Origin: Actinoplanes lobatus
GTDB taxonomy: Bacteria > Actinomycetota > Actinomycetes > Mycobacteriales > Micromonosporaceae
Length of the DNA stretch: 64,000 nucleotides
Assembly: GCF_014205215.1 (NCBI RefSeq)
Contig: NZ_JACHNC010000001.1
Span: 9,482,501 to 9,546,500 of the forward strand
Direction of reading: 5' to 3'
Positions 12,131 to 61,002 of the stretch are shown piece by piece; the stretch's first letter is position 1, and every line of letters begins with the position of its first letter. A program made the translations under genes and the position numbers. The notes beneath the pieces are model-generated. The model was not told where the DNA came from. It did no database searches and saw only the letters and a program-made list of their open reading frames with translations.

Positions 12131-14737
12131 TCACGGATCCGCCCGGTCCGGGTCCCGCTGGGTGGGGATGGCGCCGTTGACCGGGGGCGGTGGAGCGGCC
12201 CCGTTCTCCGGCGCCGCGCCGTCGACCGGATCGGAGGCCGCCGGGGCCGCGCCGTCCGGGGAGCCGGGCTCCGGGGCGGCGCCGTTGGTGGAGGGCGGTT
12301 CGGGGCGGCGCCAGATGGACGGGTCCGGGGCGGCGCCGGGCGCGACGGTGGTGGCCGGGACCGGGGCGGGTTCCGGGACGGCGATCGGCTCCGGGACGGG
12401 TTCGGCGCCCGGCCGGGACGGCAACGCGACGGGGACCCCGCCGTGGTCGCGGTGCGCGGCGAGCGCGGCCCGGTGGTACTCCTCCAGCTCGGCGATGAAC
12501 TCGGCGTCGGCGTAGACCGAACCGTCGATCAGCGGGCCCGGCCGGCCCTCCAGGACGGCGATGACGTCCTCGCCGGTGAGGGTCTTGTGCGTCTCCAGGG
12601 CGTGCGCCAGGGCGAGCACCTCCCGCCGGTTCTCCTCGAGCAGCGCGGCGGTGCGCCGCAGCATCTCGCCGAGGTTGTCCTCGATCCGGTCGGCCAGCGC
12701 GCGGCGGGCGCTGATCTCGGGCTTCTCGCCCTTGCCGGGACCGCCGGGGGTGCCGGTGCCGAGGCGGCTGGAGTAGGAGTACGACGACACGGTGGAGCCC
12801 ATGCCCCAGACGCCCTCCATGTGGGTGGCCACCGCGGTCGCCGACTCGAGGTCGCCGGAGACGCCGGAGGAGCTGTCGCCGTCGAAGAACATGCGTTCCC
12901 CGGCGAGGGAGGCGAGCGACACGTAGATGTCCGACTCGTAGTGGCTGCGCCAGGTGGTGAACTGGTCCTCCGGCGGGATGCTGGCGACCATGCCGAGGTA
13001 GCCGCTGCCCTTCTCGATGGTCGCGATGTCGATCTCGAGGTGGTGCCGGGTGCGGTAGGCGATGACGGCGTGACAGGCCTCGTGCACCGCGACGGCGTGC
13101 CGTTCCCGTTCGATGTACTCGACGTTCTCCGCCGGGCCGAGTTCCTTGAGCTGTTTGGCGCGGATGATGTCCCGCCAGGTGATGGTGTCCCGGCCGTGGC
13201 GGATGGCGGTGATCAGCGCCTCGTTGACGGTGTCCTTGATGGTGGCGCCGGTCGCGTACGGGGTGATCGTGGCCAGTTTGTCGATCTGCTCCTCGGTCAG
13301 CTCGTGCTGCACCTTGTCCAGATAGCCCTGATAGGTGCGCACCCGCCCGGCCTTGGTGGGGTAGCCGACCTTGTAGATGCGGTCGATCCGGCCGGGCCGC
13401 AGCAGCGCCTCGTCGAGGGCCTCGGGCAGGTTGGTGGCCATCATGACGAGGATCCGGTACTTGGGCGGCGGCTTGGGCCGCATGCCGAGCGCCCGGCGGA
13501 CGTGCCGGTTGATGAAGCCGCGCGGCTTCTTCAGCCCGGACAACTCGGTGAGCAGGGCTTCCAGCGTGCCCATGCCGCCGCCACCGCCCATGCCCCCGCC
13601 GTACATCATCTTGGTTTTGCGGGTTTCGGGGAGGTCGTGCCGCATGGCCTCGCGGGTGAGCAGCAGCCGCGAGTCGCCGGACAGGTAGGTGAAGCCCTGG
13701 CAGCCGTCGGCGAACGGCGCGGGGGTCATGCCGCCGCGCGGGAAGCCGGGCCCGCCCTGGGCGAGGGCGCCGCGGTTGCCGAGCGAGTCGGCCTCGTCGA
13801 GGAAGACGATCACGCCGCCGTAGCGGAGCGCGAGTTTGCGCAGCTTGCGGAAGAGCGACTTGACCTTGAGCACGCCGACGCCGAAGAACATGTTGATGAA
13901 GGCGCCCGGGTCGACGAACACGTACGGCTTGCCGGTCTCGCCCGCCACCGCCTCGGCCATCAGCGTCTTGCCGGTGCCGGGCGGGCCCCAGAGCAGGATG
14001 CCGCCGGGAACGTACCCGCCCTTGGCCTCGATGGCCTCCGGGTTCTCCAGGTAGACGATGTTCTCCTTGACGCGCTCCAGCACGTGGTCCTGGCCCCACA
14101 CGTCGGTGAACCGGGTCTTCACGTCGTCCGGGTAGTAGACCTCGACGCCGCCCCGGGACAGGAACCAGAAGATCGCGACGAACTGGCCGACCGCGATGAA
14201 CAGGATGAAGATGACCTGGAGGAACATCGGCGCGGCGGCCCACAGCAGGGCGGGCAGCTCGAAGAGGGCGAGGGCCGGCGAGGTGTCCAGCACGGACGCG
14301 AGCACCAGCGACACCAGGCCGATGAAGAGCAGCCACTTGAAGATGCGGACCAGCCGGAAGCGGGTCCAGTCGGAGAACATCCGGTGGGTGAGCCGCTCGA
14401 AGCCGCCGAAGATGCCCTTGGTCCACAGCCGGTGGTAGCCGGCCGAGTGCTCACTGATCAGGAAGTGGATCTGGCGCAGCACCTCGATGCCGAACAGCAC
14501 CACCACGGTGATGCCCTTGCCGGTGGCCGCGAGCTCGCGCATCGCGTCCTCGAACGGCAGGATCGGGTTGTCCGCCATCGCGGCCCAGACCAGGGCGAAC
14601 CACACCACGACGAAGAGCAGCAGGAACTTGATCCGGTCCCAGAACGGCAGCCGCTTGCGGGTGGGGCGGACCTGTTCGCCGGGGCCCTCGTCCGGTGGGC
14701 GCAGGCCTTCGACCGGGTGGCCGATGGGAGCGGTCAT
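12131..14737 (-). CDS. FtsH-like membrane AAA zinc metalloprotease
   Basis: 868 residues. Hydrophobic segments lie at about 37-55, 74-92, 133-150 and 155-193, followed by an AAA module: Walker A GPPGTGKT (251-258), Walker B VIVFLDEAD (309-317) and the second region of homology LLRPGRIDR (445-453). The protease zinc motif HEACH is at 552-556, so the active site is intact. Roughly 110 residues, including a Gly/Met-rich loop (GGGMGGGGGMG near 380-390), sit between Walker B and the SRH, longer than in standard FtsH. The last ~95 residues are Pro/Ala-rich and probably disordered. Four N-terminal helices rather than two also separate it from housekeeping FtsH. Start ATG 14737 overlaps the lipoprotein stop (ATGA). 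It should unfold and degrade membrane or cytosolic targets; substrates are unknown. Confidence 0.9.
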   Translation of the reverse strand: MTAPIGHPVEGLRPPDEGPGEQVRPTRKRLPFWDRIKFLLLFVVVWFALVWAAMADNPILPFEDAMRELAATGKGITVVVLFGIEVLRQIHFLISEHSAGYHRLWTKGIFGGFERLTHRMFSDWTRFRLVRIFKWLLFIGLVSLVLASVLDTSPALALFELPALLWAAAPMFLQVIFILFIAVGQFVAIFWFLSRGGVEVYYPDDVKTRFTDVWGQDHVLERVKENIVYLENPEAIEAKGGYVPGGILLWGPPGTGKTLMAEAVAGETGKPYVFVDPGAFINMFFGVGVLKVKSLFRKLRKLALRYGGVIVFLDEADSLGNRGALAQGGPGFPRGGMTPAPFADGCQGFTYLSGDSRLLLTREAMRHDLPETRKTKMMYGGGMGGGGGMGTLEALLTELSGLKKPRGFINRHVRRALGMRPKPPPKYRILVMMATNLPEALDEALLRPGRIDRIYKVGYPTKAGRVRTYQGYLDKVQHELTEEQIDKLATITPYATGATIKDTVNEALITAIRHGRDTITWRDIIRAKQLKELGPAENVEYIERERHAVAVHEACHAVIAYRTRHHLEIDIATIEKGSGYLGMVASIPPEDQFTTWRSHYESDIYVSLASLAGERMFFDGDSSSGVSGDLESATAVATHMEGVWGMGSTVSSYSYSSRLGTGTPGGPGKGEKPEISARRALADRIEDNLGEMLRRTAALLEENRREVLALAHALETHKTLTGEDVIAVLEGRPGPLIDGSVYADAEFIAELEEYHRAALAAHRDHGGVPVALPSRPGAEPVPEPIAVPEPAPVPATTVAPGAAPDPSIWRRPEPPSTNGAAPEPGSPDGAAPAASDPVDGAAPENGAAPPPPVNGAIPTQRDPDRADP

Positions 14738-15405
14738 TTGTCACTCCTCACCGTGAAGGAGGTGGCGATCGTGTCGAGTTCGCCGGACCGCTCGGCGTAG
14801 CAGCTCGTGGTGCACCGGATCAGCAGCAGGTAGAGCTTGCTGCCGTCGTTGTTCACCAGGGCGGTCTGGTCGAAGGTGTGCAGGACGCCGAGCCCGAGGT
14901 CGTAGTTGTAGACGACGCGGATCCCGTGCAGCCCGTTCTCCGGGGTGAGCACCTCGTCCTGGAGCAGCTCGAACCCGGTCAGGGTGGTGGTCTGGGCGAC
15001 CGACTCGCGGGCTTCCTCGGTGACCGGGAGGAAGAAGTTGCGCAGGATGTCGAGCGAGATCGTGTCCCGTTGCGCCTCGGTGGTCTGGGCGACACGCGCG
15101 TACAGGATCGGCTCGGTGGTGACGCCGGCGGTCATCAGGTGCTCGGCGTTCGGGTCCGCGGAGGCGTCGTACGCGACCGACCACCACAGCCGCTGGCGCA
15201 GGCCCGCGGCGGCCGAGTCGGAGTTGAGCCCGGTCAGCGCGTCGTCGAGCGACTTGGTGCCGACCTCGTGCCACTCGTGCGGCACCTTGAAGTAGGTCTG
15301 GTCGCCCGAGTTCTTCACGTAGGTGAACTCGGAGGTCCCACATCCGGCGAAAAGGGTCAGGGCGGCGACGGCCGCCGCTGGAAGAGAGGTCGCTCGTTTC
15401 AGCAT
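14734..15405 (-). CDS. Secreted lipoprotein coupled to the FtsH-like protease
   Basis: 223 residues from ATG 15405, preceded by GGAG at good spacing; an in-frame GTG at 15417 is less likely. The signal peptide ends in a lipobox LFAGC with Cys22, so the protein should be anchored outside the membrane. The body carries no named domain; it has a paired Cys motif (RCTTSC) near the C-terminus. Its stop overlaps the protease start by 4 bp, and no other gene lies in the unit. That makes it a candidate partner, regulator or substrate-presenting factor for the protease; this is inference from position only. Confidence 0.85.
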   Translation of the reverse strand: MLKRATSLPAAAVAALTLFAGCGTSEFTYVKNSGDQTYFKVPHEWHEVGTKSLDDALTGLNSDSAAAGLRQRLWWSVAYDASADPNAEHLMTAGVTTEPILYARVAQTTEAQRDTISLDILRNFFLPVTEEARESVAQTTTLTGFELLQDEVLTPENGLHGIRVVYNYDLGLGVLHTFDQTALVNNDGSKLYLLLIRCTTSCYAERSGELDTIATSFTVRSDK

Positions 15406-15529
15406 GGGCGGCTCCACTGCCTGACGGGTGAGTCCGTCCCCGCAGTGTCCCCCGAAATTGTTACGAAAACGCTATTCGGAATTCAGCTTCATCAGCAAGA
15501 TCAGGCGGATCCGCCCAGGCCATCGCAGA

Positions 15530-15560
15530 AACGGGCCGCTCCCTACGGAAGCGGCCCGTT
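15530..15560 (-). terminator. Terminator of the L,D-transpeptidase gene
   Basis: AACGGGCCGCT at 15530-15540 pairs perfectly with AGCGGCCCGTT at 15550-15560 (11 bp, 9-nt loop), about 20 nt past the transpeptidase stop on the minus strand. Confidence 0.8.
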
Positions 15561-15579
15561 CCACGGTTCGGACGAGGGA

Positions 15580-16335
15580 TCAGGTGCCGGGACGGCGCCC
15601 GAACACCTTCACCGTCATACCGATCTTGCCGATGCTGTAGTACAGCTTGGCGTCGGACTCCAGCAGGTTCACGCAGCCGTGCGACCCGCGCCACTTGTCG
15701 TGGATGTAGGTCGTGGTCTGGTGGAAGCCCCGCCCGCCGATGAAGCGCTGCCAGTACGGCAGCCACACGTCGTACGGGTCGGACCACTCCTTCTTCGTCC
15801 GCTTGTTGATCGAGAAGGTGCCCGCCGGGGTGCGGTATCCCGCGTACCCGGTACGGGTGACGGTCGGCTTGGTGTGCAGCTTCCCGTTCTTCATCACCCA
15901 CGTCGTCTGGTTGGTCAGATCGACGCAGAAGGTGATGCCCTTCTTCTTCGGCTTGCAGGCCGACGTCTTCGTCGCCGCCAGTCGCTTGGCGACGTCGTAG
16001 GTGGTCGGGCCGGCGAGCCCCTTGGCCGGCTGGATACCGAACCGCTTCTGGAACTTCACGATCGCGGCACAGTCGGCGGCGGACTGCTTACCGTCGACCG
16101 TGACCGTGCCGTACCCGCCCAGCTGCTTGAGGTAGCCCTCGACCTGTTTCTGGTACTTGCCGGTCGCGCACGACGCGGCAGCCGCCTTCGTGACCACCGA
16201 CGTGGTCACGGCCACGGCCGCCGGCACGGCCGCACCGGCACTCGCCGGCGTCAGCGCGACAGCGCCGAGACCGCCACCCACCAGAGCCGCCAAAACGGCC
16301 CCGGTGAGGCGGGCGGAAACCCGTCTCGTTGCCAA
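15580..16335 (-). CDS. L,D-transpeptidase with peptidoglycan-binding domain
   Basis: 251 residues from TTG 16335, chosen because GGGGAGGG lies 7 nt upstream; a longer frame to 16440 has no such site. Residues 1-35 form a signal peptide. Residues ~60-120 resemble a PG_binding_1 domain (VDGKQSAADCAAIVKFQKRFG, KGLAGPTTYDVAKRL). Residues ~135-247 are a YkuD catalytic domain with His205/His212 and the active-site motif SHGCVN (Cys221). It should form 3-3 cross-links in the wall or attach proteins to it, using tetrapeptide stems. It is expected outside the membrane. Confidence 0.92.
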   Translation of the reverse strand: MATRRVSARLTGAVLAALVGGGLGAVALTPASAGAAVPAAVAVTTSVVTKAAAASCATGKYQKQVEGYLKQLGGYGTVTVDGKQSAADCAAIVKFQKRFGIQPAKGLAGPTTYDVAKRLAATKTSACKPKKKGITFCVDLTNQTTWVMKNGKLHTKPTVTRTGYAGYRTPAGTFSINKRTKKEWSDPYDVWLPYWQRFIGGRGFHQTTTYIHDKWRGSHGCVNLLESDAKLYYSIGKIGMTVKVFGRRPGT

Positions 16336-49720: not shown

Positions 49721-51109
49721 GTGACCCACCGTGGGACCAGCCGGCGGGGCGTGTTCGGCGCGCTCGCCGGCGCCGCCGCCGCGACCGCCATTCCCGCCGA
49801 GGCCGCCGCCGCGGAGCGTGCCTTCCAGGCCGCGCCGGGTCGGTCGAAGCGGCCGAACATCCTGTTCATCCTGGCCGACGACCTGGGCTGGGGCGACCTG
49901 AGCAGCTACGGCTCGCCGCTGATCAAGACGCCCAACCTGGACCGGCTGGCGCGCGGCGGGGTGCGGTTCACCAACGGGTACTCGGCGGGCGCCGTCTGCT
50001 CGCCGACCCGGGTGGCGCTCTACACCGGACGGTTCCCGGGGCGCACACCCGGCGGCCTGCCCGAGCCGATCGGCGCCGCGAACGCCACCGACGGCATCCC
50101 GGCCGCCCATCCGACGCTGCCGTCGCTACTGAAGGCGTCCGGCTACGCCACCGCGCTGATCGGCAAGTGGCACGGCGGGTTTCTGCCGCACTTCAGTCCG
50201 CTGCGCAGCGGCTTCGACGAGTTCTTCGGCAACTATTCGGGTGGCATCGACTACTACTCGAAGTACAGCCACACCGGAAAGTACGACCTGTACGAGGGTG
50301 AGACGCCGGTCGAGGACGACGGACGCTACTACACCGACATCGTCGCCGACCGGGCCGAGGCGTTCGTGCGACGGCCGCACGACAGGCCGTGGCTGCTGCA
50401 CCTGAACTTCACCAGCCCGCACTGGCCGTGGGAGGCGCCCGGCGACCGCGCGGTCAGCGACGAGATCACCGCCAAGATCAAGGCCGGCAACGTCCGGGCG
50501 ATCTTCCACGAGGACGGCGGCTCGCTGGAGACGTACACGAGGATGGTCGAGAACCTGGACCAGCGGATCGGGCAGGTGCTCGACGCGCTGCGCAGGACCG
50601 GCCAGGAACGCGACACCCTGGTGATCTTCCAGAGTGACAACGGCGGGGAGCGGTTCTCCTACAACTGGCCGCTGACCGGCAACAAGGCGAGCCTCAACGA
50701 GGGCGGCATCCGGGTGCCCACCATCGTCCGCTGGCCGGCCCGCATCCGCTCCGGGCAGGTCAGCCACGAGCCGATCGTCACCCACGACTGGACCGCCACA
50801 CTGCTGGAGATCGCCGGCGCCGCCCCGCACCCGGACTACCCGCTCGACGGCGCGAGCTTCGCGGGCTACCTGCTGCGCGGCGCGGACGCGCCCGAGCGCG
50901 ACCTCTTCTGGCGTACGCGTACCGCCCGGGCCCTGCGGCGCGGCCGCTACAAGTACCTGCGCGCGACCGCAACCGGCGCCGACACCCTCTACGACGTGGA
51001 AGCCGACCCGCGCGAGCAGGCCAACCTGGCGACCAAGAACCCGGAACTGGTCGCCGAACTGCGCACCCGCTGGGAGGAACTCGACGCCCCGCAGCTGCGC
51101 TACACCTGA
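49721..51109 (+). CDS. Tat-exported sulfatase (formylglycine type)
   Basis: 462 residues from GTG 49721. The signal TSRRGVFGALAGAAAATA has a twin-arginine motif. The sulfatase domain begins RPNILFILADDLGWGD (metal ligands Asp53, Asp54) and carries the modification signature CSPTR (Cys93, to become formylglycine) followed by VALYTGR. IGKWHGG and SDNGG are further family motifs. It should hydrolyse a sulfate ester outside the cell. The formylglycine-generating enzyme must be encoded elsewhere. The 3' end overlaps the convergent PAP2 gene by 10 bp. Confidence 0.92.
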   Translation: MTHRGTSRRGVFGALAGAAAATAIPAEAAAAERAFQAAPGRSKRPNILFILADDLGWGDLSSYGSPLIKTPNLDRLARGGVRFTNGYSAGAVCSPTRVALYTGRFPGRTPGGLPEPIGAANATDGIPAAHPTLPSLLKASGYATALIGKWHGGFLPHFSPLRSGFDEFFGNYSGGIDYYSKYSHTGKYDLYEGETPVEDDGRYYTDIVADRAEAFVRRPHDRPWLLHLNFTSPHWPWEAPGDRAVSDEITAKIKAGNVRAIFHEDGGSLETYTRMVENLDQRIGQVLDALRRTGQERDTLVIFQSDNGGERFSYNWPLTGNKASLNEGGIRVPTIVRWPARIRSGQVSHEPIVTHDWTATLLEIAGAAPHPDYPLDGASFAGYLLRGADAPERDLFWRTRTARALRRGRYKYLRATATGADTLYDVEADPREQANLATKNPELVAELRTRWEELDAPQLRYT

Positions 51110-51798
51110 GCCGTCCGGCTGTCCACCTCGCGCGCCGGGGTGGCGAGCCGCCAGGGGACGTGGCGGTCGAGGATCGCGCGGGACATGACGTAGACGCAGG
51201 TGCCACCGTTCACGAAGGCGGCGGCCACGTCGCTGGGGTGGTGCATGCCGCGGTACATGCGGGCCAGCGCCACCCCCGCCGGGACCAGTACGAGCGCCCA
51301 GCACAGGGCCTTCAGCCAGGTACGCCGGACCAGGGCCGCGAGCAGCACCGCCAGGCCCAGGTAGAGGGCGACGGCGGCCGAGGTGTGCCCGGACGGGAAG
51401 CTGGAGGTGGGTGGTGACTCGTCCATCCGGGGCACGTCCGGCCGGGGCCGGTCGATGGCGACCGTGGTGAGGTAGAAGACCAGCGCCTGGGCGGTCACCG
51501 CGAGGCAGAGGAAGAGCGGCTCACGGACCCGGCGCAGGGTGAGCGCGAGCACGAGGGCGGCCACCGCGGTCACAGCGATGATCCGGGGCGTGTCGGCGAG
51601 GCCGCTGGCCAGGTGTGACGCGTCGCTGAGTGTCTCGGTGCGGTGCCCGGCGAGGTAGCGGTTCACCCCGTCCTCGACGGTCAGCGGCCAGAGGTGGGTG
51701 GCCGCGCGGGTCAGCAGGACCCCGAGTCCGATCATGACGGCCAGCAGGGCGGCGATCGGCAGCAGCACCCGCTTGAGGGCTTGTACGACTATCGGCAC
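51100..51798 (-). CDS. PAP2-superfamily membrane phosphatase, first copy
   Basis: About 232 residues from GTG 51798; a GTG at 51864 is possible but overlaps the upstream gene by 56 bp. There are five to six membrane helices. PAP2 motifs are FYLTTVAIDRPRPD, SSFPSGHTS and ARMYRGMHHPSD. Motif 1 has no Lys at the usual place (VAIDRPRP), so activity may be altered. Likely substrates are lipid phosphates or undecaprenyl pyrophosphate. It lies directly downstream of a second PAP2 gene. Confidence 0.85.
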   Translation of the reverse strand: MPIVVQALKRVLLPIAALLAVMIGLGVLLTRAATHLWPLTVEDGVNRYLAGHRTETLSDASHLASGLADTPRIIAVTAVAALVLALTLRRVREPLFLCLAVTAQALVFYLTTVAIDRPRPDVPRMDESPPTSSFPSGHTSAAVALYLGLAVLLAALVRRTWLKALCWALVLVPAGVALARMYRGMHHPSDVAAAFVNGGTCVYVMSRAILDRHVPWRLATPAREVDSRTAQV

Positions 51799-51808
51799 GG
51801 CCGTTGCG

Positions 51809-52489
51809 TTACCCCGGCGGGCCACTCCGGACACTCGCCGGCCGTCGATGGCGGACCCCGGCACGCCGGAAGACGAGCAGGGTGATCGCCGGGACGACCG
51901 CGCCGAGGAGGAGGCCGGCCACCACGTCGCTGGTCCAGTGCACGCCGAGGACCACCCGGCTGATCGCGGTGCCCACCGGGATCAGGACGGCCGCCACCCA
52001 CAGGGCCCGGACGCGGGGGAAGATCACTACGAAGACGGCCATGCCGAGGGCGGCGTTGAGGGCGTGGCCGGACGGGAAGGCGTACCCGACGGCCCGCGCC
52101 ACCGGTTCCAGCAGGTCGGGGCGGTCCCGGCCGACCAGCAGTTTGATCGCGCCGCCGAGCAGGCCGCCGACGGCCATCGTGACGGCCACCCAGACGGCCG
52201 GCCGGCGGGCGCCGCGGCGGACCAGCCAGATCACCAGCAGCAGCGCGGCCAGCCGGAAGACGTTCGGCTGGAAGATGTTCGTCCACCAGTTCATCGCGGT
52301 GGTCAGGGCCGGGTTGTCCAGGGCGGCCTCGTGCAGCCGGTCGGTGACCGACCGGTCGAACGAGTGCAGCGGCTCCCAGCCGCCCACCACGAGGGCGGCG
52401 AGCAGGGCGAACGGGACGAGCGGGAGGACCGCGACGATGGCCGCCACGCCCGCCCGCGCGTCCAGGGAGATCTCCTGGTCCGGCTGCAT
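51809..52489 (-). CDS. PAP2-superfamily membrane phosphatase, second copy
   Basis: 226 residues from ATG 52489. All three motifs are canonical: KLLVGRDRP, YAFPSGHALN and SRVVLGVHWTSD. About six membrane helices are visible. It probably dephosphorylates a lipid phosphate at the outer face of the membrane. The two copies are only distantly alike and probably form one transcript. Confidence 0.92.
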   Translation of the reverse strand: MQPDQEISLDARAGVAAIVAVLPLVPFALLAALVVGGWEPLHSFDRSVTDRLHEAALDNPALTTAMNWWTNIFQPNVFRLAALLLVIWLVRRGARRPAVWVAVTMAVGGLLGGAIKLLVGRDRPDLLEPVARAVGYAFPSGHALNAALGMAVFVVIFPRVRALWVAAVLIPVGTAISRVVLGVHWTSDVVAGLLLGAVVPAITLLVFRRAGVRHRRPASVRSGPPG

Positions 52490-52501
52490 GGCGAGTCATT
52501 A

Positions 52502-52533
52502 CCCCACAGATCACCTGAATAGCACCTGTGGGG
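52502..52533 (-). terminator. Terminator of the dynamin/Hsp70 block
   Basis: CCCCACAG (52502-52509) pairs perfectly with CTGTGGGG (52526-52533), loop 16 nt, 11 nt past the acidic-protein stop on the minus strand. Confidence 0.75.
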
Positions 52534-52544
52534 GCGCCGGCGGC

Positions 52545-52940
52545 CTAGTCGTCGTAGCCCAGCTCGTAGCGGTGGACGTCGTTGGAGACCTCGCCGTACG
52601 AGCTGATGCTGTTGTTCATGCCGTTCAGCCAGTTCAGTGTCTCCGGGCTGGCGCCGTAGGTGTTGTTGATCAGGTCGAGCGTGTTCTGGACCGATGGCGC
52701 GATGCCGGGCACCCCCGGGTCGGCGTACCCGCCGCTGAGGTCGCCGGCGAGCGACAGCTGGCCGTTGAGCTGCTGGATCAGTGCCGCGGTGTCACCGCTC
52801 ACCGGCAGGCTCCCGTAGTCGATCATCGGCACGGAGGTGTCGGCGACAGGATCGCTGTCGAGACCGTCGAGACCGTCGCAGCCGCAGAGATCCTCGGAGA
52901 AGTCGTCGGAGAAGTCGTCGGAGAAGTCGAAGTCGGTCAT
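52545..52940 (-). CDS. Acidic small protein of the dynamin/Hsp70 block
   Basis: 131 residues, ATG overlapping the GTPase stop (ATGA). The N-terminus repeats FSDDFSDDFSED, then LCGCDGLDGLDSD; the rest is Gly/Asn/Ser-rich and helical in patches (TAALIQQLNGQLSLAG, SVQNTLDLINNTYG). The protein is strongly acidic and has no membrane segment. I recognise no family. Coupling to the GTPase suggests an accessory or regulator, comparable in position to IniB next to IniA, but no sequence similarity to IniB is claimed. Confidence 0.8.
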   Translation of the reverse strand: MTDFDFSDDFSDDFSEDLCGCDGLDGLDSDPVADTSVPMIDYGSLPVSGDTAALIQQLNGQLSLAGDLSGGYADPGVPGIAPSVQNTLDLINNTYGASPETLNWLNGMNNSISSYGEVSNDVHRYELGYDD

Positions 52941-54496
52941 CGGGGTCTCCCTTGCGGTTCGGCGAGGCTGGCGCTGACGGAGGCGAAGCGGGCGGACAGC
53001 GCGGACAGCTCGCCCCGGACCTGGGCGGACGCGACCGGCGCGGTCCCGGCGGTGGGCGCCGACAGCGCGCGCAGACGGTCGAGCGAGCTCCGGAGCGCCT
53101 CCTGCGCGGCGACCGGGAACTCCACCTCTACCTGAGCCAGGACCTGGTTGACGTACCGGACGGCGTCCTGCTGGGCCAGCCTGGTCTCCTGTGTGCGGCG
53201 CCGCCGTTCGTAGAGCACCAGGATCGTCCCGGCGCCCACCGCCGCCGGCGCCAGGAAGCCGACGGCCAGCGCACCGGCCGCGCCCGCCGCGAACGAGCCG
53301 AGCCCGAGCGCGGGAAGCACGGTCTCCAGCACGCCGCCGGGCCGCGCCGAACGGCTGGGCGGCGACAGCGCCCGCAGGTGGCCGGGCAGTTCGAGGGCGA
53401 CCGGCTCGGCCAGTTCGGCGATCCGCTCGCGAAGCCAGTTCTCCTGCTCCAGCCAGAGGCCGTGGACGCGCTGGGCCACCTCGCCGGGAAGGCGGTCGAT
53501 CAGCTGGTGATCGGCCGACCGGGACAGGCCGAGCAGGTCCTCCCGCAGCGCGAGCATCTGCCGCTTGAGTTGCAGCCGCTGGTCCTTCTCCAGGGTGCGG
53601 CCGCGTTCGGCGAGCAGCGCCGGGTCGACGGCGGGCGCCGGGGGCGTGTCGCCGAGGTGGCGGTGCACCGCCCGGGCGGTGACGGCGAGCGCGTTGCCCA
53701 TCCGGATGGCGCGGGCCCGGGCGCCGACCCGGGCGGTGAGGGCGGCGGTGAGCGGGTCGATCCCGGCGGAGGCGCGCAGCCGGGCGGCCCGCTTCCCGGT
53801 CGCGGTGACCGCGTCGGCCGCGGCCCGGCTGCCGACCGGGAACCAGGCCGCGCCGGCGTGGTGCGGGGCGTGCGCGGCCAGGACCCGGCGGTTGCGGTCC
53901 AGCACGAGCTCCCAGTCGGGGTACCGGTCGGTGTGGGTGAGCACGAACGCCACCGTGCTGATCCGCTCCGCCGCCCCGGCCAGGAACCGCAGCTCGGAGG
54001 CGGTCAGCTCGGAGTCGGCACGGGTGACGAAGAGCAGCGCGTCGGCCCGCCCCAGGGTGGCCAGGGTGATCGCGCTGTGCCCGCCGTCCAGGCCGCCCGT
54101 CCCGGGGGTGTCGATCAGGCAGAGGCCACGCAGCAGCGGATCGGGGAGACCCACCTCGATCTCCGTCGCTTCCGCGACATCGGCCAGGGCGTCGAGCGGC
54201 ACGGCACGGCCGTCCGGTTCGGCCATCGTTCGGATCATGGCGTACGGGTGAGCGCTGTGCCGGACCAGCAGGTGTACGGCGGTGCCACCCTCGGCGGGCA
54301 GCAGCCCCGGCCGGCCGAGCATCGCGTTGATCAGGGCGGACTTGCCGCTGCCGCGCTCACCGGCGACGACGACCGTGGCCGCTCCCCCGGCCAGCCGGTC
54401 GACCTCGGCCCGGATCGCGGCCACCGCGGCCCGGTCGCCGAGCCGGTCGAGGACGATCGCGGCGTCGGCGATGAACCGGATGGCGGCCTCGCTCAT
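52937..54496 (-). CDS. Dynamin-like GTPase, IniA-like
   Basis: 519 residues from ATG 54496 (GGAGG 8 nt upstream). G1 is GERGSGKS (46-53), G3 DTPG (129-132) and G4 THTD (187-190). A long helical stalk follows, then a hydrophobic pair of segments (~405-445, GVLETVLPALGLGSFAAGAAG onward) that could insert into membrane, then a final helical part. This is the bacterial dynamin-like layout. It likely remodels or protects the membrane with the second GTPase upstream. Hsp70-like and acidic proteins flank it in the same unit. Confidence 0.88.
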   Translation of the reverse strand: MSEAAIRFIADAAIVLDRLGDRAAVAAIRAEVDRLAGGAATVVVAGERGSGKSALINAMLGRPGLLPAEGGTAVHLLVRHSAHPYAMIRTMAEPDGRAVPLDALADVAEATEIEVGLPDPLLRGLCLIDTPGTGGLDGGHSAITLATLGRADALLFVTRADSELTASELRFLAGAAERISTVAFVLTHTDRYPDWELVLDRNRRVLAAHAPHHAGAAWFPVGSRAAADAVTATGKRAARLRASAGIDPLTAALTARVGARARAIRMGNALAVTARAVHRHLGDTPPAPAVDPALLAERGRTLEKDQRLQLKRQMLALREDLLGLSRSADHQLIDRLPGEVAQRVHGLWLEQENWLRERIAELAEPVALELPGHLRALSPPSRSARPGGVLETVLPALGLGSFAAGAAGALAVGFLAPAAVGAGTILVLYERRRRTQETRLAQQDAVRYVNQVLAQVEVEFPVAAQEALRSSLDRLRALSAPTAGTAPVASAQVRGELSALSARFASVSASLAEPQGRPR

Positions 54497-54572
54497 GTCA
54501 CCGCCTCCGCTTCGCTCCGGCGGTGCCACGAGAACTGCCCTGAGCTCGATGATTCGCTCGTAGGCTCGCTCA
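54497..54572 (-). promoter_or_regulatory. Leader with hairpin around the GTPase ribosome site
   Basis: CACCGCC and GGCGGTG (seen on either strand at 54500-54526) form a 7-bp stem that overlaps GGAGG of the dynamin gene, with GCGAAGC at its tip. The minus-strand segment also contains a 26-codon frame ending at the dynamin start. The sequence looks like an intergenic repeat family of Micromonosporaceae, from memory. Confidence 0.4.
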
Positions 54573-56684
54573 TCAGTCCAGCACCTCGTTGTCGTACCAC
54601 CACTGGCCGACCTCGGTCGCGGAGGAGTCCAAGGCGATGGCCATGATCAGCTCGTCGTCGAAACTCCACACGACCTTGAAGTAGTCCTCGCCGTCCTCCT
54701 GGGTCCAGTAGCAGGCGAGCCGGCCCCGATCCTCGCCACCCTGCGTCCAGGGACCCACGGACTCGTCACCGTCCGAGCAGTCCCCCTCGTCGGTGGCCAG
54801 GGCTTCGCGCTCCTTCATCGCGGCCGCCAGTGAGGACGAGTCGTCGAACTGCGCGACCAGAACCTTGTAGTCGAGATCGGCGACGGGGTTGCACTGGATC
54901 GAGGCCTCGACCCCCGCGATGCCGGGCGTCCACTCCTTGCACGAATCGGCCTCGAGCACGTCGAAGTCGAGCTTGTCGTACAGGTCCTGCTGGCTGGAGC
55001 TCAGGTTGTCGCGGGCGCTGGGGGTGGTCTCCTCGGGCTCGGGGGTGGTCTCCTCCGGCTCGGGGGTGGTCTCCTCCGGCTCGGGCGTGGTCGGGTCCGG
55101 CTCCGCCGCCACGATGACCGGCTCGGGCGAGGGCGTGGTGACGGCCGGCTCGGGGGTGGTCACCACCGGGGTCGGGGTGGGGCCCGGATCGGCGGCCCTG
55201 GTGAGTGCGGTGGCCGTGGTCGCGGTGAGGCCGGCGAGCAGCAGCGCCACACCGGCCACCATCACCACCCGGCCCCGGGTGAAACGCCGGGCCCGGCCGC
55301 CGGCCGGCGCGGGTGGCGGCACCGTCATGGGCAGGGTGGCCGGCGGCGGCACGGTGTCCAGCGGCGCGGTCGCCGGCTCGGTCAGAGGCAGGGTCGGCTC
55401 GGCCGCGGGCACGGTGGGCTCGGTCAGAGGCAAGGTCGGCTCGGCCACGGGCACGGTGGCCGGGGCCAACGGCACGGTCGCGGGGCCGGACGCCGGAGCC
55501 AGCGGCACGGTCGCGGGCTCGGCCGAGGACGCGGCGGTCGAATCGAGCGGCACGGTCGCCGGGTCCGCGGTGACCGGGCCGGTGAAGGGGTCGACGGCGG
55601 GTGGGGCGGGCGGCGGCGGGGCGGTGACCGCGGTCAGCGCGCCGAGGCACACCACCGCCTTGGGGTCGCCCTCGGCCACCGGCAGCAGGCCGGTCCGTTC
55701 GGCGATCAGCTCGGACACCCGCGGGATCCGGCTCGATCCGCCGGTCAGGTAGATCGCCGCGAGGTCGCCGACCCCGATCCCGGCCGCCTCGACCGTCCGG
55801 ACCAGCTCGTCGACGGTGGGCCGCAGCCGGTCCTCGATGGCCGCCTCCAGCTCGGTCCGGGTGATCCGGACCTGGGTGTCGGCGGCGTGCACCGGCACGT
55901 TCACCACGGTCCGGCCGGAGAGCGACTCCTTGGCCTGGGTGAGGTAGTCGAGCTGGCTGGCCCGGCGCTGCTGGCCGCGGATCGAGGAGTCGGTCCACAG
56001 TTCGTCCCACTCGGCGGCTGCCTCGTGCCGCACCTGGGCGCCGACCACCTCGCGCAGCGCCTCGCTCACGTCGGCACCGCCGAAGTCCGGGTCGCCACCG
56101 GGCGGTCCGCAGATCTCGAACCCACCGGCGGTACGCCGCAGCACCGCCGTGTCGAAGGTGCCTCCGCCCAGGTCGTACACCGCGATGTGGGCGCCCACCG
56201 GCAGGTTCGCCGAGGAGGCGTGGTGCACGGCGGCCGCGACCGGCTCCGGGACGAACTCGGGTGACGGCAGCCCGGCACGGACGGCCGCCTCGGCCAGCCG
56301 GGCGGTCTCCCGCTCGGTCCAGGCGGCCGGGTGGGTGAGCACCGCCCGGAACGGTGGACGGCCCCGCCGCCTGGTCGCCTCCTCGGCCACCCGGCGCAGG
56401 GTGGCGGCGACGATCTCGACGGTGTCGACGTCACGGTCGCCGAGGCGGATCACGGTGTCGGACACCAGCGCGCGCTTGGGTTGCAGCTCGGCCATCTCGG
56501 GGTGGATCGCGGCATCCTGCGCGGCGTCCCGCCCGGTGAGCAGAGTGCCCTCCTCGTCGAGGCAGACGACCGACGGAAGATAGCGACTATTGTCTATCTC
56601 AAGCACCTCGGGTGCACCGTCGCCGGACATGACGGAACAGGTGAGACTGCTCCCGTAATCGATCGCTATAACCCAGGGCCCCAC
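54573..56684 (-). CDS. Membrane-anchored Hsp70-like protein
   Basis: 703 residues from GTG 56684 (TAGGCT 7 nt upstream). Residues 1-~350 are an actin/Hsp70 ATPase: IAIDYGSS, VYDLGGGTFDTAVL and YLTGGSSRIPRV. There is no normal substrate-binding domain. Instead a Pro/Thr-rich linker with repeated TVPLAPA/LPLTEPT motifs leads to one membrane helix (~474-497), a second EETTPEPEETTPEP linker and a C-terminal domain (~540-703). That domain has four Cys (DSCKEW, SIQCNP, EGDCSDG, LACYW) and should be extracellular with disulfides. It resembles a transmembrane signalling or sensing protein rather than a chaperone. It lies between two dynamin-like GTPases. Confidence 0.88.
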   Translation of the reverse strand: MGPWVIAIDYGSSLTCSVMSGDGAPEVLEIDNSRYLPSVVCLDEEGTLLTGRDAAQDAAIHPEMAELQPKRALVSDTVIRLGDRDVDTVEIVAATLRRVAEEATRRRGRPPFRAVLTHPAAWTERETARLAEAAVRAGLPSPEFVPEPVAAAVHHASSANLPVGAHIAVYDLGGGTFDTAVLRRTAGGFEICGPPGGDPDFGGADVSEALREVVGAQVRHEAAAEWDELWTDSSIRGQQRRASQLDYLTQAKESLSGRTVVNVPVHAADTQVRITRTELEAAIEDRLRPTVDELVRTVEAAGIGVGDLAAIYLTGGSSRIPRVSELIAERTGLLPVAEGDPKAVVCLGALTAVTAPPPPAPPAVDPFTGPVTADPATVPLDSTAASSAEPATVPLAPASGPATVPLAPATVPVAEPTLPLTEPTVPAAEPTLPLTEPATAPLDTVPPPATLPMTVPPPAPAGGRARRFTRGRVVMVAGVALLLAGLTATTATALTRAADPGPTPTPVVTTPEPAVTTPSPEPVIVAAEPDPTTPEPEETTPEPEETTPEPEETTPSARDNLSSSQQDLYDKLDFDVLEADSCKEWTPGIAGVEASIQCNPVADLDYKVLVAQFDDSSSLAAAMKEREALATDEGDCSDGDESVGPWTQGGEDRGRLACYWTQEDGEDYFKVVWSFDDELIMAIALDSSATEVGQWWYDNEVLD

Positions 56685-56691
56685 ACCCGGG

Positions 56692-56697
56692 AGCCTA
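56692..56697 (-). promoter_or_regulatory. -10-like hexamer TAGGCT of the Hsp70-like gene
   Basis: TAGGCT on the minus strand, 7 nt before GTG 56684. The 72-bp gap to the upstream GTPase is AT-rich, so this gene may have its own promoter. Confidence 0.45.
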
Positions 56698-56756
56698 ACG
56701 GAAATGCAGGGGTTTCCCTATTCCCCGGATATTCACCTGATCGAACGAAAAAAGAA

Positions 56757-58208
56757 TCAACTGTTCGGACGACTGGCGAAGAATGCGATTTCCGACAGTT
56801 CCCGCGCAGACCGGGCGTGTCGGGCCAGCAGGCGTGACGGGCTGCCTTCCAGCCGCCGCCACCGGGCTGTCCACCGGTCTGCCACAGCCGCCACCTCGGC
56901 CGGCTCGGCCTGATCCGGTAGGCCGAGCCGGGCGGTGTCGGTGCCGCCGGTGGCCAGGCGGATGAGCGCGTCGGCGTGTTCTTCGTCCAGGGTCAGCCGG
57001 CCGTCGGCGAGATCCCGCAGGGCGGGCGCGAGAGCGGCCTGGCGCATAACCGGATGATTCCGTAATTCGTTCAGCCGGGCCCGCAAATGGCGTTGTTCCG
57101 GACCGTCGCCGAGCCAGGCGGCGCGTTCCAGAAGGGTGATCGCGGTGACGCCGCGCAATCGGTCCGCGGAACGCACGAAACTCTCCTCGATGAAACGGGT
57201 GACCGAGGCGATGCCGGAACTCGCGGTGAGCGAGCGCAGCATTTCGTCACTGCGTGTCACGCCGGCGTCCCGCAGGCGGGCCGCCTCGCGCAACCCGTAC
57301 ATCCCGAACAGCCGCAGCAGGCGGCGCCGGTCCTCGCCGGACATCCCGGGCAGGTCGGCGCCGAGCAGCGCGGCCGGCGAGTAGAGGACGTCGTCCTCGG
57401 CGTCCGCCTCGGCCAGCAGCCGCAGCCGGCGCAGGTCGTCCTCGGTGACGGTGTCGCCGACCGCGGTCTCGGCGAGCAGGCCCACCACCGGCACCACCCC
57501 GGCGACCAGGCCGCGCAGCTCGATCGCGTACCCGCCGGCGGTCCGCCAGGCGTGCGGCCACGGGTCGTCGTCGTCGCTGAGCGTGTCCACCCGGCTCAGC
57601 ACGCCCAGCACGTTCGCGGCGCTCAGCCCAGCCCGCCCGGAGGTGGCCCGCAGCGATTCGAGGGCCTCCCGGTCCCGGTCCCCCGGGTGCGGCATCACGT
57701 AGAGCAGCGCGTCGGCCTGGGCCAGCGCGGCCATGGCCGGCTCGTCGAGGCCGCTGACCGAGTCGAGCCCCGGGGTGTCGACGAGCTGGTAGCGGTCGGC
57801 GAGCCGGGCGTTGGGCGTCTCCACCACCACGGCCTCGATGTCGGCGACCGGCACCGGCAGCGTGGCCGGGACGCCGCCGCCGGGCGCCGACGCGACGAGT
57901 GTCTCGCCGCCGGACCGCAGCGCCAGCCGCACCCGGTTCTGGTGGTGGTGCCGGTACCACGTGACCAGCGTGGTCGTCTCGGTCGCGCCGGTCGCCGCCA
58001 GGCGCTGCCCGAGCAGCGCGTTCACCAGCGTCGACTTGCCGGCGTTGACCCGGCCGCCGACCGCGATCCGCAGAGTCCGCCCGGCGAGCCGGTCCCGGAC
58101 CGCGGCGACCGCCTCCATGGCCGGGCCGGGCGGCAGGACGTCGAGGGTGTCCGCGCACAGCGCCCGGATCCGGTCACACAGGCTCATGCCCGAGAGATGG
58201 CTGGTCAC
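56757..58208 (-). CDS. Dynamin-like GTPase, IniC-like
   Basis: 483 residues from GTG 58208, chosen by TACCGT 6 nt upstream. G1 is GGRVNAGKSTLVNALLG (51-67), switch I has ETTTLVTWY, G3 is LVDTPGLD and G4 SRVD. The C-terminal half is helical without a strong membrane segment. This fits the IniC-like partner of two-gene bacterial dynamin pairs, the membrane-inserting partner being the GTPase at 52937-54496. The two are separated here by the Hsp70-like gene. Confidence 0.88.
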   Translation of the reverse strand: MTSHLSGMSLCDRIRALCADTLDVLPPGPAMEAVAAVRDRLAGRTLRIAVGGRVNAGKSTLVNALLGQRLAATGATETTTLVTWYRHHHQNRVRLALRSGGETLVASAPGGGVPATLPVPVADIEAVVVETPNARLADRYQLVDTPGLDSVSGLDEPAMAALAQADALLYVMPHPGDRDREALESLRATSGRAGLSAANVLGVLSRVDTLSDDDDPWPHAWRTAGGYAIELRGLVAGVVPVVGLLAETAVGDTVTEDDLRRLRLLAEADAEDDVLYSPAALLGADLPGMSGEDRRRLLRLFGMYGLREAARLRDAGVTRSDEMLRSLTASSGIASVTRFIEESFVRSADRLRGVTAITLLERAAWLGDGPEQRHLRARLNELRNHPVMRQAALAPALRDLADGRLTLDEEHADALIRLATGGTDTARLGLPDQAEPAEVAAVADRWTARWRRLEGSPSRLLARHARSARELSEIAFFASRPNS

Positions 58209-58214
58209 GCCGCT

Positions 58215-58220
58215 ACGGTA
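58215..58220 (-). promoter_or_regulatory. -10-like hexamer TACCGT of the IniC-like gene
   Basis: TACCGT on the minus strand, 6 nt before GTG 58208, in a 123-bp gap after the AAA gene. Confidence 0.45.
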
Positions 58221-58331
58221 AGCCTTGAGGGTGACCACCCACGTCAGCCCGGCGGGCGCGCCGCGGCCGTGCGCCGGCAGCGCCTCGCGGGTCGCCCACG
58301 GCAGAGCGCGTAGCCCGTACCGGAAAATGAT

Positions 58332-59777
58332 CTAGGAGTGACCCCGCAGATCCCGGACCGAGGTGATCAGCTCCTCCTGGGAGATCGGGGTGACCGGGCC
58401 GCCGCGCGCCTCCTGCATGGCCTTGCTGAGCTGCAGGCGGCGCAGCACCTCCTTGATGTCGGCGCCGGTCATGCCGGTGCTGGCGACGGCCAGCGCGTTC
58501 AGGTCGAGGTCGTCGGCGAACATCCGGAAGCCGGGGGTCTCGTGGGCGCTGATCAGGCCGCGGATCATCTTGCGGAAGATCTCGGCGCGGCCGTCCTCGT
58601 CCGGGCGCGGGATGCTCAGCTTCACGTCGAAGCGGCCGGACCGGGTCAGCGACTCGTCCACCCGGTGCGGGAAGTTGGTGGTGGCCACCACGATGATGTT
58701 CGGGTTCTCCTCGATCAGGTCGTTCATCTCCTGCTTGAAGATGCCGGCCACGGCGTTGAGCGCCTGGCTCGCCGCGTCCCCGCCGGCGCCCGCGTAGCTG
58801 ACGATCGAGTCGAACTCGTCGAAGAGCATCACCGTCGCGGTGCGGTAGCGGCGCGCGTCGCGGAAGATCTGCTTGATGTTGCGCTCCGACCCGCCGAGCC
58901 ATTTGTCCAGGATCTCCGGGGTGCGGATCTCCCGGAAGTCGGCGCCGATCTCGTTGGCCAGCGCCCGCGACAGCATGGTCTTGCCGGTGCCGGGCGGGCC
59001 GTACATGAGGATGCCCTGCGGACGGCGGGCGCCCCACCGGGCCATCGCCTCCGGATGCCGGAACGACACCGCGATCTGCCGCAGCTCGGCGACCACGTCG
59101 ACCAGGCCGCCGACCATGTCCAGGGTGACCGTCTCGGTGGTCGGTGGCGCCTTCGGCACCGCCTCCCGGCTGATCACGAAACGCCGGCCGTCGAGCGAGC
59201 CCGGCCCGGCCAGCTCGGTCACCGCCTGGAGGGTGAGGGTGACGAAGGCGCGCAGGTGGGCCGGGGTGACCTCGTCGCGCGGCACCCGCGCCTCGACGCG
59301 GGCCACGGTGCCGTCCGCCTCGTAGGTGACGGCCGCTTCGAGACCGGCGGCGGCGTCGGCGAGGACCTCCGGTTCGCGCTCGGCCGGTTTCTCCAGACCC
59401 AGTTTCCGGTACGCCGCGGCGGCGGCCGTCCCGACGCCGTCGACCAGCCTCGTGACCACCTGGTCGCCGGCCGCGATGCGGCGGGCCAGCAGCGGGCCCA
59501 GCGGGTCGATGCTCAGCACGATGCCGCGCATCCGGTGCTCGGTGGCCAGCGGGGTGCTGAGGGTGGTGATCCGGGCGGTGAAGACGTGGTCGGCGGTGTC
59601 GGCCGCGACGGTCAGGTCGACCCGCTGGACCGGGACCGGCCAGGCGGCCCGGCGCAGCGGCTCCACCGGGTTGACCCGCGCGGCGGCGAGCAGGGTGACC
59701 GCGTCGACCAGCTCGACGGTCGCGCCGGCGAACTCGAACGTCTCGGTACGCGGCCGTGCGAAGCTCGCGTCGGTCAT
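58332..59777 (-). CDS. AAA ATPase, single-domain CDC48/Vps4-like
   Basis: 481 residues from ATG 59777 (GGAGG about 7 nt upstream). Residues 1-~210 form a beta-rich N-terminal region with no named domain. Then come Walker A GPPGTGKT (260-267), Walker B VMLFDEFD (316-323), SRH ATTNFPHRVDESLTRSGRFD with arginine fingers, and a C-terminal helical lid (ALAVASTGMTGADIKEVLR). It should be a hexameric unfoldase or remodelling ATPase; no protease domain is attached. It lies directly upstream of the dynamin/Hsp70 block on the same strand. Confidence 0.87.
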   Translation of the reverse strand: MTDASFARPRTETFEFAGATVELVDAVTLLAAARVNPVEPLRRAAWPVPVQRVDLTVAADTADHVFTARITTLSTPLATEHRMRGIVLSIDPLGPLLARRIAAGDQVVTRLVDGVGTAAAAAYRKLGLEKPAEREPEVLADAAAGLEAAVTYEADGTVARVEARVPRDEVTPAHLRAFVTLTLQAVTELAGPGSLDGRRFVISREAVPKAPPTTETVTLDMVGGLVDVVAELRQIAVSFRHPEAMARWGARRPQGILMYGPPGTGKTMLSRALANEIGADFREIRTPEILDKWLGGSERNIKQIFRDARRYRTATVMLFDEFDSIVSYAGAGGDAASQALNAVAGIFKQEMNDLIEENPNIIVVATTNFPHRVDESLTRSGRFDVKLSIPRPDEDGRAEIFRKMIRGLISAHETPGFRMFADDLDLNALAVASTGMTGADIKEVLRRLQLSKAMQEARGGPVTPISQEELITSVRDLRGHS

Positions 59778-59869
59778 GGTGTCCTCCGGTCGGGTATCCG
59801 GGCACGACCATCCCAGCGTGACACGGTGACGCACGGTTTGGCCCGTCACCGGGCGGGCATGCGGCTGCC

Positions 59870-60058
59870 ATGACTGACTTCCTCGGCAAGGCCAAGAAGT
59901 TCGCCGACCAGCACGACGAGCAGGTGGATCAGGTCCTGGAGAAGGCCGGCGACCAGATCGACGAGAGGACCGGGAACAGGTACTCGGACCAGATCGACCG
60001 GGGTGTCGACGAGGCACAGAAACGCACCGGGGAGGGAGACACCGTTCCGCCGTCATGA
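59870..60058 (+). CDS. Small MT0933-like antitoxin-family protein
   Basis: 62 residues: MTDFLGKAKKFADQHDEQVD, then QVLEKAGDQIDERTGNRYSD. This charged helical pattern matches the MT0933/Rv0909-like family annotated as antitoxins. No toxin gene adjoins it, so it is either an orphan or a stress protein. No ribosome site is visible. It is divergent from the AAA gene, 92 bp away. Confidence 0.75.
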   Translation: MTDFLGKAKKFADQHDEQVDQVLEKAGDQIDERTGNRYSDQIDRGVDEAQKRTGEGDTVPPS

Positions 60059-60118
60059 CAGGCGGCGCCGCCCGTCGAGAACCGGGAAATCCGCTGGCCC
60101 CCGGGCCGGACCGTGGGC

Positions 60119-60124
60119 CACGAT
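60119..60124 (+). promoter_or_regulatory. -10-like hexamer CACGAT, leaderless start
   Basis: CACGAT, TCCGGC, then ATG 60131. Confidence 0.35.
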
Positions 60125-60130
60125 TCCGGC

Positions 60131-60916
60131 ATGGACCGGACAGCGGAGATCCGCGCCTTCTACGCCGACCGTTACGACGAGGCGGGCCGGTTCGACCGGC
60201 GGCCGAGCAACCGCCTGGAGCACCTCCGCACCATGGAGCTGCTCACCGAACTTCTGCCGGCCGCACCGGCCGCCGTCCTCGACGTGGGCGGCGGTCCGGG
60301 GGCCTATGCCCGGCCGCTCACCTCGGCCGGTCACCGGGTCAAGCTGCTCGACCTCGTGCCGTCGCACGTCGACCAGGCCCGCGCGGGCTCCCCGCCGGTC
60401 GAGGCCGAGGTCGGCGACGCCCGGTCGCTGCCCGAGAAGGATCGGGGGTACGACGCGACGCTGCTCCTCGGGCCGCTCTACCACCTGCTGTCCCGGGCCG
60501 ACCGGGTGCGGGCGCTGGGCGAGGCGGTCCGGGTGACCCGGCCGGGTGGGCTGGTGATCGCCGCGGCCATCTCCCGGTTCGCCGGACCGCTCGACTTCGG
60601 CGCCACCGGGCGGCTCGAGCCCCGGTTCCTCGACGAGGCGCGGCGGTTGATCACCGACGGGTTGAACGATCCGGGCATCGGGTTCACCCACTCCTACTTC
60701 CACCGGGTGCCCGAGCTGGTCGGCGAGTGTGCGGAGGCCGGGCTCACGCGGGTCGTGGTGCACGGCGTGGAGGGCCCACTGTGGACCGCTGTCGCGGCGG
60801 CCCCGGACGACCCGGCGGTCTTCGCCGCGGCGCTGGAAGTGGCCCGCATCTACAGCAGTGAACCGGATCTGGTCGCGGCCAGCGCCCACCTCCTGGCCGT
60901 AGCCACCGTCCCCTGA
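60131..60916 (+). CDS. Class I SAM-dependent methyltransferase
   Basis: 261 residues from ATG 60131; an upstream GTG frame to 60113 is less likely. EIRAFYADRYDEAGRFDRRP precedes the SAM motif VLDVGGGPGAYARPL, then VKLLDLVPSHV, GDARSLP and YDATLLLGPLYHLL. This is the Methyltransf_11/25 type of small-molecule enzymes. The substrate is unknown. Confidence 0.9.
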   Translation: MDRTAEIRAFYADRYDEAGRFDRRPSNRLEHLRTMELLTELLPAAPAAVLDVGGGPGAYARPLTSAGHRVKLLDLVPSHVDQARAGSPPVEAEVGDARSLPEKDRGYDATLLLGPLYHLLSRADRVRALGEAVRVTRPGGLVIAAAISRFAGPLDFGATGRLEPRFLDEARRLITDGLNDPGIGFTHSYFHRVPELVGECAEAGLTRVVVHGVEGPLWTAVAAAPDDPAVFAAALEVARIYSSEPDLVAASAHLLAVATVP

Positions 60917-60996
60917 CCGGCCGGCACCTCGCGGTGCTCGCGGCAGCGCTCGCGGGCGGGTGGAGATCGGGCGGTGACGGGGCGGGCCGGGGGTGG

Positions 60997-61002
60997 CAGG
61001 AT
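60997..61002 (+). promoter_or_regulatory. -10-like hexamer CAGGAT, leaderless start
   Basis: CAGGAT, GGCGGC, then ATG 61009. Confidence 0.35.

Follow-up and report, generated by a model that had tools for sequence, protein, structure and literature searches.

A putative operon of two dynamins and a membrane-anchored Hsp70-like ATPase in Actinoplanes lobatus

We analyzed a 64,000-nucleotide stretch of the genome of the soil bacterium Actinoplanes lobatus (contig NZ_JACHNC010000001.1, positions 9,482,501 to 9,546,500; hereafter, the window), focusing on a block of genes on its minus strand. Four of these genes, encoding an IniC-like dynamin, a membrane Hsp70-like ATPase, an IniA-like dynamin, and a small acidic protein, are predicted to form an operon at 52545-58238, and the AAA ATPase gene upstream is placed outside it. 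Judged from sequence comparison, the union of the dynamin pair with an Hsp70 is a real combination that recurs, together with GrpE-like and DnaJ genes, across Actinobacteria and whose members co-diverge. We hold with about even confidence that the four genes make up a chaperone-gated membrane-remodelling stress module, in which the IniC/IniA pair would be governed by the membrane-anchored Hsp70-like ATPase and the acidic protein would be an accessory. In the accessible literature, the link between dynamins and Hsp70 shows up in passing hints only.

Architecture of the four-gene unit

All five open reading frames (ORFs) of the block were recovered on the minus strand, with the transcription order AAA ATPase, IniC-like dynamin, Hsp70-like ATPase, IniA-like dynamin, and acidic protein (Table 1). 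A first-pass annotation of the window had described five genes on one strand, with IniC-like and IniA-like GTPases flanking an Hsp70 and an acidic protein coupled to the second GTPase; the coordinates, the dynamin profile matches of both GTPases, and the overlap that places the start of the acidic protein inside the IniA stop codon agree with that description. The other gaps measure 93 (AAA-IniC), 72 (IniC-Hsp70), and 76 bases (Hsp70-IniA). For IniA, an alternative start at GTG 54529 gives a longer frame and was judged less likely than the one listed. No RNA element reached the gathering threshold within 51000-61000, and the block contained 0 promoter-like and 2 terminator-like sites, counts that are near chance.

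Table 1. Predicted features of the gene block in the window.
Feature	Position	Strand	Remark
AAA ATPase, CDC48/PAN type	58332-59777	(-)	neighbour, not member
IniC-like dynamin GTPase, first gene of the four-gene unit	56757-58238	(-)	start may be ATG 58187
Hsp70-like ATPase: N-terminal nucleotide-binding domain, Pro/Thr linker, membrane helix, outer four-Cys domain	54573-56684	(-)	
Outer (ecto) domain of the Hsp70-like protein, residues 556-703	54576-55019	(-)	
IniA-like dynamin GTPase	52937-54496	(-)	start by ribosome-binding site: ATG behind GGAGG
Small acidic protein, translationally coupled to IniA	52545-52940	(-)	4-base overlap

Both GTPases matched Dynamin_N (PF00350), with E values of 1.5e-13 for the IniC-like protein and 4.8e-13 for the IniA-like protein (scored on the 54529 frame), and both possess G1-, G3-, and G4-type motifs (GRVNAGKS, DTPG, and SRVD in the IniC-like protein). 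When compared with G042 (same order), the window IniC-like protein matched the IniC-type gene at 1.1e-30 but the adjoining IniA-type gene at only 2.1e-7, and its copy in another genome of the family, G159, shares 70% identity. Both dynamins also matched the PADLOC profile for LeoA (1.3e-14 and 1.1e-12), and the LeoBC profile likewise matched both. The LeoABC defence system consists of three dynamin genes, leoA-leoB-leoC; the window block holds only two dynamins and so does not contain this set. The solved protein closest to the window IniA-like protein was IniA (6j72, E = 9.8e-20), which is reported to cut membranes using GTP, in the accessible part of a study that also found purified IniC too unstable to work with (PMC6715688).

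The Hsp70-like protein matched PF00012 (E = 4.1e-32) from profile position 105 to position 368 of 599, where the match stops; in place of the substrate-binding domain come a Pro/Thr-rich linker, a single hydrophobic helix at about residues 468-486 with Arg residues just before it, and an ectodomain whose tail carries four Cys, invariant across four aligned sequences. Profile and hydropathy thus sustain the earlier description of an Hsp70-type ATPase with a membrane helix and a Cys-rich outer domain replacing the substrate-binding domain. In an alignment to the genome's own DnaK, the phosphate loops, the Lys/Glu/Asp positions, and the adenosine motif were all kept; we take these residues to have the same catalytic roles in the window protein, and its ATPase core looks intact. 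Compared with Hsp70 chaperones, the protein therefore shares the ATPase domain with its catalytic residues and differs in the part that would bind substrates.

A Ser/Thr kinase of G047, arranged in the membrane in the same way, carries a relative of the outer domain (29% identity between the outer domain and the kinase tail, with a borderline Z), which would fit the sensor role that the first-pass annotation had given to this domain. Unlike receptor Ser/Thr kinases with a PknH-type ectodomain, the window protein has an Hsp70-type domain in place of the kinase. A protein search that scored the 7,993 candidates with the most words in common with the query found the tail in 3 further Hsp70 proteins. 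Three nuclease-domain proteins (P0005-P0007) that covered 16-25% of the query, probably through the linker, were dropped as tail relatives, and the four-Cys tail of L080-type Hsp70s was rejected as kin of the window tail, phmmer having given no match.

The acidic protein is, on the conservation of its sequence, a genuine protein: 8 relatives besides itself were found at E <= 0.01, and the 9 sequences share 35 invariant columns, including the blocks LPVSGDTAA and SPxTLNWL. It had no match in Pfam or in plasmid records and one meaningless match in NCBIfam, and its predicted structure was uninformative (predicted local distance difference test score, 48.1). In Actinoplanes sp. LDG1-06, the Hsp70 tail and the acidic protein were both located on one 128,944-base contig.

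Recurrence and co-divergence of dynamins and Hsp70

The surroundings of dynamin loci (labelled L) were read with a codon-based gene caller and local profiles, and cluster labels were taken from single-linkage BLAST with Pfam run on representatives only. The A. lobatus genome contains at least four dynamin pairs, and three of the four loci read adjoin an Hsp70-like gene (the window, L080, and L081). Since there are 7 Hsp70-type genes in 10.4 Mb, adjacency by chance should be rare, an expectation based on gene density.

Eighteen regions were read from a sample of 246 genomes of the phylum, one of which (L230) had no dynamin, leaving 17. All 11 non-own places at E <= 1e-19, among the matches listed, had an Hsp70-like gene within 6 kb, as did 12 of the 17 dynamin regions as a whole. 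We ranked 219 genomes of the order by similarity to the window IniC and, setting aside the family of A. lobatus and G427, which had already been read, examined one locus, the best match, in each of the first 20. An Hsp70 lay within 6 kb at 11 of these 20 loci (including L241, counted from coordinates as the gene caller missed it), and in 8 of the remaining 9 the IniC and IniA genes flanked a GrpE-like gene, so that 19 of the 20 loci had one or both. The one locus with neither, L242, is cut off by the end of its contig; this contig is short, as is that of L250. The GrpE-like proteins of the order sample were above the curated Pfam cut-off in 10 of 10 cases, covering 7 of those 8 loci.

The family sample comprised 60 loci (L083-L142), with Hsp70 at 33 and only GrpE- or DnaJ-cluster genes at 12 more. 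Since these loci were partly picked with Hsp70 coordinates known, the proportion of 33 in 60 carries a selection bias. In the subset taken near rank order (L083-L102, which passes over 15 places belonging to genus g34), Hsp70 was present at 4 of 20 loci, GrpE-cluster genes at 11 more, and neither at 5. The representatives of the respective clusters proved to carry DnaJ, GrpE, and LuxR domains, with one GrpE-cluster member just under the cut-off, and a sigma-70-type (ECF-like) factor was found on one representative.

Over 53 triads of IniC, IniA, and Hsp70, the distance correlations were 0.960 for IniC-IniA, 0.863 for IniC-Hsp70, and 0.857 for IniA-Hsp70, and the best of 1000 permutations of the IniC-Hsp70 comparison reached 0.269. 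Because species relatedness alone would inflate such a correlation, we also exchanged Hsp70s within each of the 8 genomes that had 2-3 triads; r then averaged 0.678, with 1 of 2000 swaps attaining 0.863.

Several individual loci had further features. At L258 of Nonomuraea gerenzanensis, in the order IniC-GrpE-IniA-Hsp70, the Hsp70 terminates in a CD225 domain, and two Peptidase_C14 caspase-domain proteins are encoded near the locus, at 2520-5042 (-) and 13368-15839 (+). An Hsp70, two DO-GTPase-cluster genes, and a dynamin pair are found at one locus in L073, L074, and L075; in L073, one of the two genes passes the DO-GTPase cut-offs and the other matches below them. In L075, L076, and L077, from three genomes, two adjacent dynamin/Hsp70 clusters run in opposite orientation, which looks as though such clusters duplicate or recruit one another. 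The Hsp70-dynamin loci L113, L125, L126, L130, L132, L134, and L137 adjoin genes for AAA/winged-helix, lysozyme/NlpC-P60, and Ig-like proteins and possibly contain a contractile injection cluster. L081 of the A. lobatus genome encodes, at 10862-11704 (-), a protein whose N-terminus is acidic and which weakly matches papain-like profiles (BtrH_N / Peptidase_C70). At L222 (family f8; presumed Mycobacteriaceae by gene order), the 595-amino-acid Hsp70-like product of gene 13, beside IniA/IniC, may be a pseudo-ATPase.

The neighbouring AAA gene and the patchy distribution of the block

The first-pass annotation had counted a Vps4-like AAA upstream as part of the system. The gene does lie upstream, but the Vps4 label is not specific: the best profile was CDC48 (4.6e-50), CdvC gave 1.9e-32, and no N-terminal Pfam domain was matched. 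Among the matches listed, the gene was present in 66 of the 67 genomes of the genus, that of A. lobatus included (E <= 5.5e-203), being absent only from G023 and having an internal stop in two of the 66; such a distribution marks it as a core gene of the genus. We read 14 non-own AAA neighbourhoods of roughly 20 kb each (8 from the top ranks and 6 hand-picked). None held a called dynamin or Hsp70 gene, and in 11 the AAA gene was surrounded by relatives of the window genes from 41-62 kb. Several genomes of the genus have dynamin/Hsp70 loci of other types no more than about 20 kb from the AAA gene, at a distance of two to four called genes in L115, L119, L130, and L139; this proximity, with its varying orientation, is best described as a shared neighbourhood and not as an operon. 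Genus-wide presence and synteny thus led us to reject the AAA as a system member.

The same four genes, in the same order and with no AAA beside them, were found in G159, where the unit lies at about 4.49 Mb and the AAA gene at 3.38 Mb, 1.1 Mb apart. Of the five-gene combination first proposed, the dynamin pair with Hsp70 recurs and co-diverges and the four-gene core recurs elsewhere, but the AAA largely fails to co-occur. The full four-gene set was seen only at the window and in G159 among the loci read. Among the matches listed, 7 of 250 genomes of the family have an IniC strongly matching that of the window (E <= 5.5e-78), namely that of A. lobatus, G159, G182, G148, G093, G179, and G188.

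The AAA gene most similar to that of the window (98%, among the matches listed) was in G019. Pieces of this genome match IniA at window 52911-53049 and 53683-53795, and the match resumes from 58184, in the first bases of IniC; because these remnants remain at the same place, the block was lost there, and a clean empty site was rejected in view of the scars. In the place of the lost block is a 2.3-kb stretch in which only short open frames were called (L202, 10064-12357). No IniC relative was found at E <= 1e-6 in 50,697 phage records, and the single IniC match at E <= 1e-10 among plasmid records was an 11.9-Mb record of chromosome size, so that carriage by phage or plasmid was rejected. A locus-level search with IniC gave 2 weak loci, which were not used.

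Relation to known systems and proposed mechanism

The mycobacterial iniR-iniBAC system likewise has an IniA/IniC dynamin pair in one operon, with IniA as the best solved relative, and many sister loci have large LuxR-type regulators with what looks like an IniR-type layout. In contrast to iniBAC, the window has an Hsp70 inside the operon between the two dynamins and no IniB-type protein; its acidic protein is downstream of IniA, whereas the IniB-type gene is upstream in iniBAC, and the acidic protein homologue at L072 does not cluster with C13, the cluster taken for IniB by position. No LuxR/STAND (IniR-type) regulator was read among the 46-64 kb translations, which involved no family scan of the flanking genes. 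Cyanobacterial BDLP1 and Campylobacter DLP1/2 are also paired dynamins, but the accessible part of the literature on them mentions neither an Hsp70 gene within the operon nor a sensor domain outside the membrane; the dynamin encoded alongside BDLP1 bears a DnaJ-like domain, a proposed binding site for DnaK (PMC6104087). Kaur et al. (2020) tied HSP70, an HSP70 domain without the peptide-binding domain, GrpE, and DnaJ to GTPases in conflict systems found mostly in actinobacteria and firmicutes, and the word dynamin has 0 matches in the accessible main text (PMC7159879). The window differs from these systems in having no DO-GTPase or GAP1 among its five proteins, but the sister loci L073-L075 do join DO-GTPase-type genes with dynamins and Hsp70. 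We found no description of the dynamin-Hsp70 link as such in the accessible literature, whose coverage is partial, so that this absence is no proof; one sentence concerning smegmatis hints at it in passing (PMC5760070), and the accessible part of a 2026 iniBAC paper has no match to the terms Hsp70, chaperone, or DnaK (PMC13413693).

In the proposed mechanism, the outer domain would read the state of the envelope and thereby shift the cytoplasmic Hsp70 domain between its ATP and ADP states; this domain would load, activate, or disassemble the IniA/IniC assembly at the cytoplasmic side of the membrane. Hydrolysis of GTP would then reshape or reseal the membrane; the acidic protein may be a regulator of the assembly or of the membrane interface, and nucleotide exchange in the same Hsp70 cycle would fall to the GrpE-like proteins encoded at sister loci. 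We infer the sensing, the gating, the benefit to the cell, and any anti-phage use from sequence. A broader and more tentative proposal is that Actinobacterial IniA/IniC pairs as a class are clients or effectors of a dedicated, often membrane-tethered Hsp70 cycle (Hsp70-like ATPase, GrpE-like exchange factor, and J-protein), with a swappable end (PknH-like ectodomain, CD225, or tail anchor) setting the signal and Hsp70 ATP turnover gating GTP-driven remodelling; it would be a bacterial counterpart of Hsc70-controlled coat dynamics and would be used in conflict systems too.

Several observations weigh against the stress module or its generality. The fold matches of the outer domain lie in the grey zone. 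Ten full-length Hsp70s at sister loci have no membrane helix by the hydropathy cut, and the Hsp70-like protein of L222 lacks the DnaK catalytic motifs, so membrane anchoring and ATP cycling cannot be general. G004 retains a relative of the Hsp70 (78% over 357 residues) with no dynamins beside it. As for the linkage, L082 of the A. lobatus genome has no Hsp70 and no GrpE- or DnaJ-cluster genes, 5 of the 17 dynamin regions of the phylum sample, all weaker matches, have no Hsp70 within 6 kb, and the surroundings of 15 of the 60 family loci are devoid of Hsp70, GrpE-like, and DnaJ genes alike.

The main rival is a conflict or anti-phage module, in which the outer or cytoplasmic part of the Hsp70 would detect infection or a breach and the dynamins would seal the membrane, delay lysis, or kill the cell. 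It owes this place to the DO-GTPase-type genes, Peptidase_C14 caspases (Nonomuraea locus), and papain-like protein (L081) at sister loci, and to the patchy presence and decay of the block; Bacillus subtilis DynA is reported to work against phage lysis in the accessible part of one study (PMC8844932). The LeoA and LeoBC matches also point this way, but any bacterial dynamin could give LeoA matches of this sort and the third dynamin gene is absent. Together with the near-complete lack of relatives in phage and plasmid records, and with the response of the nearest studied relatives, iniBAC, to wall drugs (PMC5760070, accessible part), this leaves the anti-phage reading rather unlikely. Improbable in our judgement is a dedicated chaperone without signalling, which would keep aggregation-prone dynamins folded and soluble by means of the Hsp70-like and GrpE-like proteins. 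A plain folding role is conceivable because of the reported instability of IniC, and GrpE-like and DnaJ genes do occur at sister loci, but the Hsp70 has no substrate-binding domain, and folding needs neither a membrane helix nor a conserved outer domain.

A system of all five genes, with the AAA acting like Vps4, is very improbable: the shared strand, the short gap, and the proximity of the AAA to other dynamin/Hsp70 loci favour it, but the near-universal presence of the gene in the genus, its neighbourhoods free of dynamins and Hsp70, its varying orientation to other loci, and its separation from the unit in G159 largely refute it. We consider it least probable of all, to the point of being scarcely credible, that the genes are independent neighbours by chance, as the patchy distribution and the two intergenic gaps around the Hsp70 gene, which could hold separate promoters, might suggest; recurrence in many genera and co-divergence contradict this.

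Mycobacteria switch on IniA/IniC under wall drugs. The recurring association with Hsp70, GrpE, and DnaJ parts makes the way in which bacterial dynamins may be controlled accessible to experiment. If the stress module is real, the Hsp70 ATPase domain would act in it as a switch for signalling at the membrane instead of a folding chaperone, a use new for this domain.

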